A DNA stretch of 64,000 nucleotides, taken from assembly GCA_019112865.1 (NCBI GenBank), contig DXIN01000030.1, positions 1 to 64,000 on the forward strand, in the 5' to 3' direction. Below the pieces are notes generated by a model. That model was not told the DNA's origin. It did no database searches and saw only the letters and a program-made list of their open reading frames with translations. The position numbers were made by a program, and so were the translations under genes. This document shows, one piece after another, positions 33,058 to 60,961 of the stretch (its first letter is position 1; every line of letters begins with the position of its first letter). Origin of the DNA: Candidatus Helicobacter avicola (lineage in GTDB: Bacteria > Campylobacterota > Campylobacteria > Campylobacterales > Helicobacteraceae).

Positions 33058-33151
33058 CTTTTTCCTTAATTCTTTATTTGAGTTCTTGTTTTAAAAAACC
33101 CTAATGCTTTGCGTGGTAGAATCCCTAAAGACTTTACACAAAAGGACACTC

Positions 33152-35371
33152 TTGAACACAGCAGAGCTTTTGATAGAAATACTAACCCAAGAACTCCCAG
33201 CAATTCCGTTTTTGCAAGAATTTCCACATATCGCCACTAAATGGCATCACTCTCTTAAAGCACATCACATACCGCCTTGTGATACACAAGTGTTTTTTAC
33301 GCCTAGACGCCTTGTGCTTTATGCCAAAAATTTCCCACTATACTCGCAAGATAGAGAGATTGAAGCCTACGGCGCACCCATTAGCATAGCGTATGAAAAT
33401 AGCGGTGCGCTTACTAAGGCGGGTTTGAGTTTTTTTGCTAAACACAATCTCGACCCTCAACTAGACCGAGATAAGGTAAGTAGTGCAATCAAAGACGGCA
33501 AGGAAGTGCTGTATTTTTCCCACACCCAAAAGGGTGTAGAGACTACTAGCCTACTCCCAGAGATTTTTAGTGAGTTTTTGCAGAGTTTGCATTTTGGCAA
33601 AAGTATGCGTTGGGGGAGTTTAAGCGAGGGATTTATCCGCCCTATTGAGAATATTTGCGCGTTTTTGGGTGGCTCTAGCCTACATCTTAGTGCATTTGGG
33701 GTAGATTCTAAGCCACAGACTTTTGGGCATAGGGATTTAGGATTTGCGCCTATTGATGTGGAGAGTGTGGAGGGGTATTTTGAGATTTTGCGCAAACACA
33801 AAGTTATCCTCAACCAACAAGAGCGTAAAGAGCATATTCTAAAGCAGATTCGCGAGATTGAGGATACGCACAATGTGGAAGTGGAACTCGATCCCGCATT
33901 GCTTGATGAAGTGGTGGCAATCACAGAGTATCCAAAAGCTTTGCTTGGGAGATTTGATGAGAAATTTTTGGAACTGCCAAAGGAAGTCATCATCACTTCT
34001 ATGAAAGAGCATCAGCGGTATTTTGCTATCCACAAACAAGGGCGGCTTTTTGATGGGTTTGTGGTCGTGAGTAATTCCACAAATAGCGATGCTTCACTCA
34101 TCATCTCGGGTAATCAAAAAGTGCTCAAAGCGCGGCTAAGTGATGCGATGTTTTTCTACCATAATGATTTAAAACGTGGATTACAGACACAGGGGCTAGA
34201 GAATATCCTCTTTGTGCAGGGGCTAGGGAGTTTGGCAGACAAGAGTGAGAGGGAGCTACAAATCGCGCAGATTCTGTATGCTAAATACGCACCCACGCAT
34301 AATTTTATGCCTAAGAATTTTTTGGAGCTACTCACACAAAGTGTGCGGTATGCTAAGGCAGATTTGCTCACGGAGATGGTGTATGAGTTTCCCGAACTAC
34401 AAGGGATTATGGGCGGGTATTATGCGCAGGCACTTGGTTATGATGAGTTGGTGGCGCGAGCTATCAGGGAGCAATATCTCCCAAATAGCGAGGAGAGTGC
34501 ATTGCCTTCTAATGCGCTAAGTGCGATTGTGAGTCTTGCAAATAAGCTTGATAGTATCTTTGGGCTTTTTAGTATCGCAAAAATCCCTACTGGCTCTAAA
34601 GATCCCTTTGCTCTGCGGCGTGCGGCTAATGGGGTGATAAAGATTATCCAAAATGAGGGCTTTACATTTAATCTGCGCGAGGATTTACGCGCACTCTATG
34701 AGGCATTGGGCTATGGTAAAGATTCACAGAGTGGGGATTCACGCCCCACGACAGAATCTAAAGCCTTAGATTCAGGCAGTGTATGCGCGCGCAGCGGAGC
34801 GAGTGGGGATTCACTCCTCACGAGCGATAACAATTTGCCACAGGCAAATTGCATAAAAAAAATAGAATCTTTTTTTCTTGAGCGGCTTGAAAATGCCCTG
34901 CCGGTAAATGCTTCGATTTTCCGCGCTGCGCTTTGTGGGTTAGATACACACAATCAGCCACAACGCGACATTAACACTCTCACCCAAAACGCCCTCGCAC
35001 TGCATGAGGTATTCCAAAGCACGCAGGATAAGCCAGCACTCCTTAGCACCTTTAAGCGTGTGGCAAATATTTGCAAAGACATCGACATTAATGCGTTAGA
35101 TTCTGTAGATTCTCTTGACACCTCACTTTTTGTCCATAAGGCAGAATCTAGTCTTTTTGAGAGTTTTATGAGGGTTAAAAATGGGGAGTTTGCCACGCAG
35201 TTAGATCGTGCAAGTGCGCTTTTTGCACTCAAATCTCCGCTTGAAATGTTTTTTGAAAATGTGCTTGTCAATGATAAAAATGAGCGGTTAAAACGCAACC
35301 GATATGCGCTTATTGGGAGCATTTATCGGGAGTTTTTGACTATCGGCGACATCGCCCAAATCGCTATCTAG
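33152..35371 (+). CDS. glyS: Glycyl-tRNA synthetase beta subunit with inserted element
   Basis: Charges tRNA-Gly together with GlyQ. The conserved N-terminus LNTAELLIEILTQELPA supports TTG 33152 as start, with AAAGGA 6 bases upstream; frames from 33104 add 16 unconserved residues. The protein is 739 residues, longer than the about 700 usual in relatives. Family motifs include GKSMRWG, EHQRYFA, KDPFALRRAANGVIKI and a C-terminal anticodon-binding DALR-like part. Residues about 524-572 (KDSQSGDS to NCIKKIE) look foreign and coincide with a palindromic element. Confidence 0.95.
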   Translation: MNTAELLIEILTQELPAIPFLQEFPHIATKWHHSLKAHHIPPCDTQVFFTPRRLVLYAKNFPLYSQDREIEAYGAPISIAYENSGALTKAGLSFFAKHNLDPQLDRDKVSSAIKDGKEVLYFSHTQKGVETTSLLPEIFSEFLQSLHFGKSMRWGSLSEGFIRPIENICAFLGGSSLHLSAFGVDSKPQTFGHRDLGFAPIDVESVEGYFEILRKHKVILNQQERKEHILKQIREIEDTHNVEVELDPALLDEVVAITEYPKALLGRFDEKFLELPKEVIITSMKEHQRYFAIHKQGRLFDGFVVVSNSTNSDASLIISGNQKVLKARLSDAMFFYHNDLKRGLQTQGLENILFVQGLGSLADKSERELQIAQILYAKYAPTHNFMPKNFLELLTQSVRYAKADLLTEMVYEFPELQGIMGGYYAQALGYDELVARAIREQYLPNSEESALPSNALSAIVSLANKLDSIFGLFSIAKIPTGSKDPFALRRAANGVIKIIQNEGFTFNLREDLRALYEALGYGKDSQSGDSRPTTESKALDSGSVCARSGASGDSLLTSDNNLPQANCIKKIESFFLERLENALPVNASIFRAALCGLDTHNQPQRDINTLTQNALALHEVFQSTQDKPALLSTFKRVANICKDIDINALDSVDSLDTSLFVHKAESSLFESFMRVKNGEFATQLDRASALFALKSPLEMFFENVLVNDKNERLKRNRYALIGSIYREFLTIGDIAQIAI
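34721..34868 (+). repeat. In-frame palindromic element, glyS copy
   Basis: Four hairpins in a row: GTGGGG/CCCCAC (34731-34749), GAATCTAA/TTAGATTC (34754-34773), GTGGGGA/TCCTCAC with one G-T pair (34803-34821) and CAATTTGCC/GGCAAATTG (34831-34851). The core GCGCAGCGGAG then GAGTGG and CACGAGCGATA recurs in the D-lactate dehydrogenase gene with altered but paired arms. Encodes ESKALDS and then RSGASGDSLLTSD. Confidence 0.8.
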
Positions 35372-58088: not shown

Positions 58089-58120
58089 AGGATTGTGTCA
58101 TTACAACTTTAGGAGTGTGT

Positions 58121-60961
58121 ATGCAGACATTTTCTATCAAAAACCTTGATTGTGCGGCTTGTGCGGACAAGCTAGAGCGCAAACTGCGTGAATGTAGTGG
58201 CGTGCGAGAAGTGCATATCTCCTTTGCTACCAACACCTTACAGATTGATTGCGAGGATATATCCTCTGTGCGCGCACTCATACACTCCATTGAACCAAAG
58301 GTGCAAATCACACAAAAGATTCAAAAAAGCAGTTTTTTTACCCCTAAGCTTTTTGGATTATTGGGACTTATCACGCTTTTTTTGGCTTGTGTGGCATTGT
58401 GGCATTGGGCTGATATGGAATCCGCAGATTCTCTAAGCTATGATGTATTGGCGATTAAGCTTGTGTGGATTGGTATCTATCTTGTGAGTGGGCGCAATGT
58501 CATCAAAGGTGCGATAAGGGGCTTTAAAAATAAGGAATTTTTTGATGAAAATGTGCTTATGCTAGTGGCAAGTATAGCGGCATTTGGGCTTGGGGCGTGG
58601 GAAGAGGCAGTAAGCATAATGCTCTTTTTTGCCACAGGGGAGTATCTGCAAGAAGTGAGCGTGAAGAGGTCGAAAGAGGCGATAAGTGAGGGGGCGAATT
58701 TGGTGCCTGCCACCGCGCACCTTTTGGAGAGAAATTCCTCTCTTGCGCAGGAAAATGACTCCGTAGGCTTGCAATGTGATAAGATTGTGGATTTTTGCAA
58801 AGGCACGGACACCAAATCCGCTAACCTTCCAAAAAATCCGCAAAGCTTACACAGCCACACTGCAAATACTAATTTTATTGTGTGCAATAGTGAGCTTAGA
58901 GAATCCGCACTAAGCCAAGAGGGCAAGCCAAGCACGGAATGTAAAACAAGTTCAGAATCTAATGAAAGCTTAGATTCTAGATTCAAAGTTTCAGATTCAA
59001 ATTCAGAATCTAACCTCATGGATTCAGAATCTACCACTTCAAAAAACTTGTGCGAGGCTTTGCCAAATATAAATAGTGCGTGCGTAAGCACGAACCGAGC
59101 AGAATCTAAAGCTTTAGATTCTGCCATTTTTGCAGAGCAAAAATCAAATCAAATGTGTAGTGCGACAGCACCAACCACCTCTCGCCCGCTTCGTGGTGTG
59201 CAATCGTTGGAGCAAGGAGGCAGTAGTGCCTCCGCAACGATTGCGCTAGAAGCGGATATAGCGAGGCTCTCTCCCCGATTGCCGAAAAAGCGGTGGCTTT
59301 TTCGGGGCTGGGGAGAGCGGGGAGAGGGGAATACCCCTTTTTGCGAAAAAACACAGGATTTTAAAAAACAAAGAATTATTCGTGAGAATGAAATTCCAAG
59401 AAATGGAGAATCTAACCCACAGATTCTAACACACACAGAATCTAAGGGAGATTTAGAATCTAATCCCGCCACACAAGAACCCCAAAGCGCGAAAACAAGC
59501 CAAGCCACAACAACAGACATCGACCCCAAAGACTTAGCAGAGGGCGACATCATAGTCTTGTATGCTGGCGAAATGCTGCCTTGTGATAGCGTGCTATTAG
59601 AGGAGAATGCGAGTTTCAACACTGCAGCTATCAGTGGCGAGTCCCTCCCTGTGGAATCCAAAAAGGGCGAGGAAATCCTAAGCGGCTCTATCGCACTCAA
59701 TAAAGCCATAAAACTCCAAGTCCTGCGCCCCTTTGCCAAAAGCCAAATCGCCCAAATCGCTGATTTGATAGCCTCTGCCACCCTGCAAAAATCCCCTACT
59801 GAAAATTTCATCACGACTTTTGCGCGTTACTACGCGCCCATAGTCTTTGCCTTTGCCCTAGCCCTTGCGCTTATCCCGCCGCTAGCGTTTGCCCAGAGTT
59901 TTGAGGAATGGGTGTATCGCGCCCTTGTGGTGCTTATGGTAAGCTGCCCGTGCGCCCTTGTGGTGTCTGTGCCTATTGGCTACTTTGGGGGATTAGCCGC
60001 AGCAAGCAAACGCGGTGCGCTCATAAAGGGCTCAAACTACCTAGAAGCCCTAAGCAAACTCTCTACCATAGCCTTTGACAAGACGGGGACACTGACAAAG
60101 GGCGTGTTTGAAGTCATTGATGTGTGTCCAAATGAGGGGTTTAGCAAAGATGAGGTGCTAGCCAATGCGCTATGTGCGCAAAATCTCTCTAATCACCCCA
60201 TAGCCAAATCCATACGACAAGCCTATCAGAATCTAGCCCACACGCACGCTATCAGTGAATACGAGGAGTTATCGGGCTTGGGCGTGCGCGCGGTGTGTGA
60301 TAATCACGAGATACTTGCGGGCAATGACAAAATCCTCCATACCTTTGACATCGCTCATAATACCTGCTATGTGCAAGGGAGTGTGGTGCATATCGTGCGC
60401 AATAGGCAGTATCTAGGCTATATCCTCATCGCTGATGTGCTTAAAGACGAAGCTCCAGAGGTTTTGGGGAGCTTACGCGATTTGGGTGTGGATTCACTCA
60501 TACTTAGTGGCGATGGGGAATATCCCTGCAAGGTGGTGGCACAAAAGCTTGGCTGTGAGTATCATCACTCACTCTTGCCGCAAGATAAGGCGCGAATCTT
60601 TAGTGAGATAAAGGCGCAAAGTAGCTCTAAAGTGGCGTTTGTGGGTGATGGTATCAATGACGCCCCTACACTTGCGCTTGCTGATGTGGGCATGGCAATG
60701 GGTAGCGGGAGTGATATAAGTATGCAAAGTGCTGATGTGATTATCACGAACAATTCCCTCAAAACCCTGCTTGGCACGATACAAATCGCCAAAAAGACAA
60801 AGACTATCATCTACCAAAATATCGCTCTAGCTTTGGGGATAAAGGGTGTGTTTATCGTGCTAGGGCTTTTTGGGCTAGCAAGTATTTGGGAAGCAATCTT
60901 TGGCGATGTGGGCGTGGCACTGCTCGCACTTGCAAATGCGATGCGGTGTATGAGGGCTTAG
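58121..60961 (+). CDS. cadA: CadA/ZntA-type P1B metal ATPase with about 255-residue insertion
   Basis: Heavy-metal exporter. N-terminal HMA domain with CAAC (about 11-14), then helices, the CPC metal site SCPCAL, phosphorylation site DKTGTLT, HP motif NHPIA and hinge GDGINDAP; the class fits Cd/Zn/Co transport. ATG 58121 has AGGAG 5 bases upstream. At 946 residues it is far longer than the about 690 of relatives. The excess, about residues 205-462, is Ser/Glu/Asn-rich and splits the actuator domain between GANLVPATAHLL and DIDPKDLAEGDIIVLYAGE, before the intact SGES. That DNA is a hairpin array. Function is likely but folding of the insert is unknown. Confidence 0.9.
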   Translation: MQTFSIKNLDCAACADKLERKLRECSGVREVHISFATNTLQIDCEDISSVRALIHSIEPKVQITQKIQKSSFFTPKLFGLLGLITLFLACVALWHWADMESADSLSYDVLAIKLVWIGIYLVSGRNVIKGAIRGFKNKEFFDENVLMLVASIAAFGLGAWEEAVSIMLFFATGEYLQEVSVKRSKEAISEGANLVPATAHLLERNSSLAQENDSVGLQCDKIVDFCKGTDTKSANLPKNPQSLHSHTANTNFIVCNSELRESALSQEGKPSTECKTSSESNESLDSRFKVSDSNSESNLMDSESTTSKNLCEALPNINSACVSTNRAESKALDSAIFAEQKSNQMCSATAPTTSRPLRGVQSLEQGGSSASATIALEADIARLSPRLPKKRWLFRGWGERGEGNTPFCEKTQDFKKQRIIRENEIPRNGESNPQILTHTESKGDLESNPATQEPQSAKTSQATTTDIDPKDLAEGDIIVLYAGEMLPCDSVLLEENASFNTAAISGESLPVESKKGEEILSGSIALNKAIKLQVLRPFAKSQIAQIADLIASATLQKSPTENFITTFARYYAPIVFAFALALALIPPLAFAQSFEEWVYRALVVLMVSCPCALVVSVPIGYFGGLAAASKRGALIKGSNYLEALSKLSTIAFDKTGTLTKGVFEVIDVCPNEGFSKDEVLANALCAQNLSNHPIAKSIRQAYQNLAHTHAISEYEELSGLGVRAVCDNHEILAGNDKILHTFDIAHNTCYVQGSVVHIVRNRQYLGYILIADVLKDEAPEVLGSLRDLGVDSLILSGDGEYPCKVVAQKLGCEYHHSLLPQDKARIFSEIKAQSSSKVAFVGDGINDAPTLALADVGMAMGSGSDISMQSADVIITNNSLKTLLGTIQIAKKTKTIIYQNIALALGIKGVFIVLGLFGLASIWEAIFGDVGVALLALANAMRCMRA
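58954..59338 (+). repeat. Array of palindromes inside cadA
   Basis: Hairpins in order: AGAATCTAA/TTAGATTCT (58954-58978), CGTGC/GCACG near 59078-59092, a perfect 26-base palindrome (59099-59124), ATTTTTGC/GCAAAAAT (59126-59144), a nested structure 59186-59255 with stems CCGCTTC, GCAATCGTTG and GGAGGCA, another at 59269-59317 with stems CTCTCCCC and CCGAAAAAGC, and AGGGG/CCCCT (59325-59338). All stems listed are perfect. The frame stays open throughout. Confidence 0.85.

Follow-up and report, generated by a model that had tools for sequence, protein, structure and literature searches.

Our results indicate, with a probability that we put at roughly 0.83, that the 258-codon insert in a metal-transporting ATPase of Candidatus Helicobacter avicola is an array built of small palindromic elements, mobile but non-autonomous, which entered a permissive loop of the protein one after another with the reading frame kept. 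The host gene lies at positions 58115 to 60961 on the forward strand of the window, which is the whole stretch of 64,000 nucleotides analyzed here, begins with a GTG start codon, and encodes a ZntA-like heavy-metal P-type ATPase of 948 amino acids. ORF analysis recovers it as a single frame of 948 codons with neither frameshift nor stop. Pfam identifies HMA, E1-E2 ATPase, and HAD domains, the NCBIfam matches are heavy-metal P-type ATPase families, and the motifs DKTGT, CPC, GES, and GDGINDAP are all intact in the alignment. Among the five congeners compared, Helicobacter equorum (G001) and Helicobacter sp. TUL (G003) share 84% identity with residues 463 to 947.

The ATPases of all five congeners align to residues ~2 to 206 and ~459 to 947 with at most 30 nucleotides between the two parts, and the additional sequence is located between AHLLE and DIDPKDL. 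This site, empty in the five congeners, is the first hairpin loop of the actuator domain, a surface loop equivalent to residues 244 to 252 of ZntA (4UMV). In an AlphaFold model built with seven aligned sequences, the pLDDT is below 50 at residues 206 to 463, with values of about 23 across the insert, and this stretch is flanked by strands at residues 201 to 205 and 465 to 469. We set the limits of the insert at 58730 to 59503 (forward strand, 258 codons) because the region of pLDDT below 50 spans residues 206 to 463. A first-pass annotation of this DNA had described a 255-residue insertion at 58720 to 59520 that interrupts the actuator domain of a metal P-type ATPase without closing the frame, and had proposed structure prediction as a check. 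The insert is real and its size and limits needed correction; its position in the domain and its open frame are confirmed by the single ORF, the Pfam and NCBIfam matches, and the congener alignment, and the prediction finds strands of the host on either side of a low-confidence stretch. Low pLDDT fits disorder, yet also arises where a stretch has no relatives in the alignment. The 258 residues probably form a disordered loop in the protein.

The insert is a mosaic, in which all segments but one are read on the forward strand. At the 5' junction, positions 58733 to 58753 (AATTCCTCTCTTG..., peptide NSSLAQE) appear from their sequence to repeat part of the 5' end of the element that follows, which we designate element A. 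This is a 123-bp protein-coding imperfect palindrome at 58754 to 58876 with the peptide NDSVGLQCDKIVDFCKGTDTKSANLPKNPQSLHSHTANTNF, which scores 108.8 bits with covariance model R1 and is further supported by structure and covariation. It is followed by a repeat segment rich in the word AGAWTCT at 58947 to 59112 (SSESNESLDSRFK...), which is matched on contig C14 of this genome within an open frame of 303 codons, and by a strandless 26-bp perfect palindrome at 59099 to 59124 (GCAGAATCTAAAGCTTTAGATTCTGC, peptide AESKALDS), which resembles the head of a further repeat, element C. Element B, a palindromic repeat of ~165 bp at 59180 to 59345, contains nested hairpins at 59200 to 59244 and ~59269 to 59317, and the tail of the insert at 59391 to 59503 includes several AGAWTCT words. 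DNA comparison with six genomes of the genus matched pieces of the insert to separate places. The first piece is also present in frame in a type ISP enzyme (G002), an MBOAT protein (G005), and IlvD of this genome, the piece at 59152 to 59390 matches contig C10, and the piece at 59246 to 59353 matches eleven places in G005. The view that several palindrome types had gathered at one tolerated site thus gains support from a site that is empty in congeners, from the joining of at least two dispersed families with AGAWTCT-rich segments, and from the side-by-side occurrence of elements A and B in one frame in two other genomes, G070 and G076, where 100 bp separate element B from an element A copy. 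We infer that the insertions at the ATPase site were successive.

The insert was described earlier as rich in palindromes, and DNA folding against shuffled sequence shows that these exceed chance. The z-score is -7.1 for the perfect palindrome at 59099 to 59124, -5.6 for a nested hairpin of 18 pairs within 59195 to 59245, -4.9 for the hairpins within 59245 to 59360, and -3.3 for the element at 58770 to 58889; in RNA folding over the whole gene, the strongest z-scores mostly fall within the insert. Nested hairpins of up to 24 paired bases, as first described, are close to what we count but inexact, as the two contain 18 and ~20 pairs and the element A fold contains 28. The peptide ESKALDS is indeed common to the palindrome at 59099 to 59124 and to glyS, where it heads the longer element C of ~116 bp. 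This element occupies positions 34755 to 34870 (forward strand), in frame within glyS (33104 to 35368, named by sequence reading), and a second copy at 37516 to 37636 (forward strand) is in the same frame within an ORF at 35408 to 38356 that encodes an FAD-linked oxidoreductase-like protein. Copies of element C are repeatedly found in the same frame, sometimes in tandem, and matches number 51 in this genome (G000) against three weak ones in the five congeners, which therefore points to a recent, species-specific burst. Relatives of element B occur in 29 of 119 genomes of the family, representing 8 of 13 genera. Several are within long ORFs in more than one frame, and as their frame counts are less uniform than those of element A, we assign element B no one preferred frame.

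Element A is the best characterized of these repeats. Its copies share the ends AATTC...GAATT, which form terminal inverted repeats, and a length of 123 bp (41 codons), and 93% of the outer helix is paired. A peptide search found matches in 25 of the 119 family genomes; as such a search finds one frame only, it was superseded for locating copies by a covariance-model search, which is blind to frame. With up to 150 candidates scored in each genome, the latter revealed at least 103 copies in G056, at least 78 in G027, at least 22 each in G036 and G096, at least 19 in G045, and at least 6 in this genome, and element A was absent among the matches listed for H. equorum, Helicobacter sp. TUL, and three genomes of genus g7. 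We inspected the sequence context of 88 copies and found 41 within long ORFs (200 codons or more, with extended flanks). Of these 41, 36 are in frame +0, one of six frames, although the covariance model started from peptide hits and the 36 are not all independent, with orthologous hosts including IlvD five times and GT8, type ISP, and DUF2400 proteins twice each. The length is divisible by three in 34 of the 36. The remaining five intragenic copies belong to a related subfamily that is read on the opposite strand. Palindromes of this subfamily, DSKNCGGALRALGQFGG..., are seen at L155, L185, L174, L188, and L157, in frame and ahead of domains that include DegT and GT8. Copies of element A usually have two or three open frames, and the choice of frame is therefore not forced by stops internal to the element alone. 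Outside long ORFs, 20 of 24 high-scoring copies have an open frame +0, compared with ~15% expected from shuffled sequence.

The hosts identified by Pfam include IlvD, AlaS, ProS, RNase R, NAD kinase, MurJ, and a GlyS beta subunit that contains two elements, as well as ABC ATPases, an AIR-synthase-like (PurL-type) protein, SMR, carbamoyltransferase, GT8, GT9, GT1, DegT, DUF459, DUF2400, MBOAT, and type ISP proteins, and the host domain is often split around the element. The copies in IlvD of one genus and in AlaS of another are identical at 122 of 123 bases, which is too close a match to have arisen through descent of the host genes. The insert as a whole was not found conserved as protein in distant species; what recurs in other genera is the element A peptide, in unrelated genes, and this therefore supports mobility. 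Several further arrangements were observed. Element A or a variant is present at the same IlvD site in several genera (L106, L110, L114, L117, and L125), by descent, transfer, or a hotspot. Variants with the ends of element A and a different core, still in frame, are found at L098, L099, L112 (1090 to 1212), and L166 (559 to 681). At L140, a small multidrug resistance (SMR) protein, whose family model has 93 positions, is one 420-codon frame enclosing element A and a long array.

The stems of element A display strong covariation. Across 17 copies, 95.9% of the cells pair, and 17 pairs have changed on both sides, compared with 7.8 in shuffles, none of which reached as high a number; pairing falls to 34 to 52% when the partner is slid. 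The inner arms of 46 copies vary in multi-base blocks with complementarity kept. Quasi-palindrome template switching copies one arm onto the other and can also yield covariation. Selection for shape and the copying of one arm onto the other would both fit the pattern of the arms.

The word AGAWTCT is a second feature of this DNA. Over both strands of the window, the form AGAATCT is found 139 times, where ~11 would be expected, and AGAWTCT (AGAATCTA) occurs 59 times in the window against 2.5 expected and 1775 times in this genome (889 and 886 by strand) against 90 (45 and 45) for the reversed control. In the window, AGAWTCT is present in most genes and in all phases, and its density is higher beside element A. 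Many genomes of the family have an excess of the word, and those of genus g7 have no consistent excess. In G031, AGAWTCT (AGAATCTA) is found 9796 times and one weak match to element A is among the matches listed, and the two phenomena are therefore at least partly separate. AGAWTCT could act as a word for DNA uptake or methylation. By analogy, it resembles the DNA uptake sequences of Neisseriaceae (PMC2397512, PMC3630211) in being short, dense, on both strands, and mostly in genes, and differs from them in being self-complementary. No relevant paper on AGAATCT/AGATTCT was found in the open-licence literature.

Other origins of the insert have to be weighed against mobile elements. The hairpins could be functional parts rather than selfish DNA, selected for a role in RNA or DNA such as mRNA control, termination, or protein binding. 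The compensatory changes in the stems of element A and the many copies outside long ORFs would agree with this. We nevertheless regard it as improbable, as the copies lie deep in the coding sequences of unrelated genes, the stem sequence varies in blocks, the ATPase insert is wholly missing from five congeners, and the copying of arm onto arm could also give the covariation. Still less credence is due to a lineage-specific disordered linker grown by slippage and accumulation of AGAWTCT without mobile elements. The word is in excess throughout the genome and occurs 10 times in the 782 bp of the insert against 2 times in the remaining 2065 bp of the gene, but at least two segments of the insert are copies of dispersed multicopy palindromes with defined ends, which largely refutes such growth, and no AGAWTCT is present within element A itself in the 41 copies counted.

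That the ATPase gene is decaying, and that the insert is tolerated since the pump is out of use, we consider an equally slight prospect. An addition of 258 codons to a catalytic cytoplasmic domain is drastic; nonetheless, the 948 codons contain no stop or frameshift, residues 463 to 947 and the four motifs are conserved as described above, and genes that are usually essential (alaS and proS) likewise host element A. Removal of the insert after transcription or translation, by an intron, an intein, or programmed bypass, has next to no chance of being correct. The known RNA families found in the window by Rfam are two tRNAs only, with no intron family, the Pfam and NCBIfam scans contain no intein family, the frame is open throughout, and a mosaic of unrelated repeats is unlike one self-splicing unit. 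An array of mobile palindromic elements is thus the reading we prefer, and we take the insert to be nearly neutral for the pump.

Among known systems, element A behaves, by analogy, as do the Rickettsia palindromic elements (RPEs), and we do not claim membership in the named families RPE-1 to RPE-10. Reviewing the work of Ogata et al. (2000, 2002), PMC3767692, PMC10969869, and PMC2229807 describe RPEs as palindromes of 100 to 150 bp in frame in unrelated, conserved Rickettsia genes. The title of the 2002 paper by Ogata, which PMC10969869 cites, presents protein-coding palindromes as unique to Rickettsia, and MITEs other than RPEs with fused frames are known (PMC2229807). Element A displays RPE-like traits, as it is a dispersed palindrome of 100 to 150 bp with a conserved hairpin and in-frame hosts, and has an element-free ortholog of a host, as seen for the ATPase in five congeners. 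RPEs and the palindromic elements of Wolbachia are similarly imperfect palindromes of 100 to 150 bp in several families, both in frame in genes and intergenic. Different RPE families occur at similar sites, and extended RPE inserts overuse ATGAC, to which AGAWTCT is the counterpart here. The bacteria belong to different phyla, the window being from a Helicobacter placed next to H. equorum, and the likeness drawn here is one of behavior. Unlike RPEs, the elements described here number up to ~100 per genome within one family, form an array that joins several families, and have stem arms that vary in blocks from copy to copy. The MITEs ERIC, Correia/NEMIS, and RU-2/YPAL (PMC2229807) are also short and non-autonomous with terminal inverted repeats and are sometimes fused to genes in frame. 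Element A differs in that 41 of the 88 copies sampled sit within long ORFs, with one preferred frame. No target duplication was evident at the ATPase junctions, where the flanks have diverged, and the search for a parent element, which covered Y1, identified none. REP/BIME sequences with their RAYT (Y1) transposases (PMC3733652) are likewise short multicopy palindromes, but REPs are 20 to 40 bp and extragenic. Dispersed mitochondrial palindromes in Volvox (PMC2670323) and sponges (PMC2800124), which these sources regard as probably selfish, are organellar, unlike those described here. No report of in-frame palindromes or uptake sequences in Helicobacter or Helicobacteraceae was found in the open-licence literature, which is weak evidence. 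By this comparison, the array would represent a palindromic behavior known mainly from Rickettsia, with no earlier report from Helicobacteraceae in that literature.

Our results suggest the following course of events. Element A, a protein-coding palindrome of 41 codons that is free of stops in one frame and dispersed in Helicobacteraceae, would survive in genes where its frame meets that of the host and where the site tolerates the added residues. In the ATPase, a permissive loop would have received non-autonomous palindromes in turn; once it contained one insert, this loop would have become neutral ground on which further elements and AGAWTCT words could pile up. The elements are presumably moved by some enzyme. 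A Y1/RAYT transposase was considered and ruled out, as no Y1 transposase was detected in any of the 15 genomes searched, while the control was detected. No clean target-site duplication was seen at the ATPase junctions, whose flanks have diverged. As the stem arms vary in whole blocks with pairing and ends kept, we tentatively raise the possibility, itself a doubtful one, that Helicobacteraceae have a mobilization system that reads the shape of the hairpin and not its sequence and whose cargo would stay readable as protein. Long disordered arrays would form in essential enzymes and would be fed further by natural transformation, with AGAWTCT as the uptake word.

To our knowledge, selfish palindromes that keep the reading frame have been treated as peculiar to Rickettsia and Wolbachia. 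These bacteria are obligately intracellular and hard to manipulate, whereas Helicobacter species can be cultured, so that the movement of the elements, the keeping of the frame, and the effect on essential enzymes are directly testable. Such elements would explain the unusually long aminoacyl-tRNA synthetases and other enzymes encoded in these genomes, and the in-frame arrays provide natural examples of sites at which proteins tolerate large insertions.
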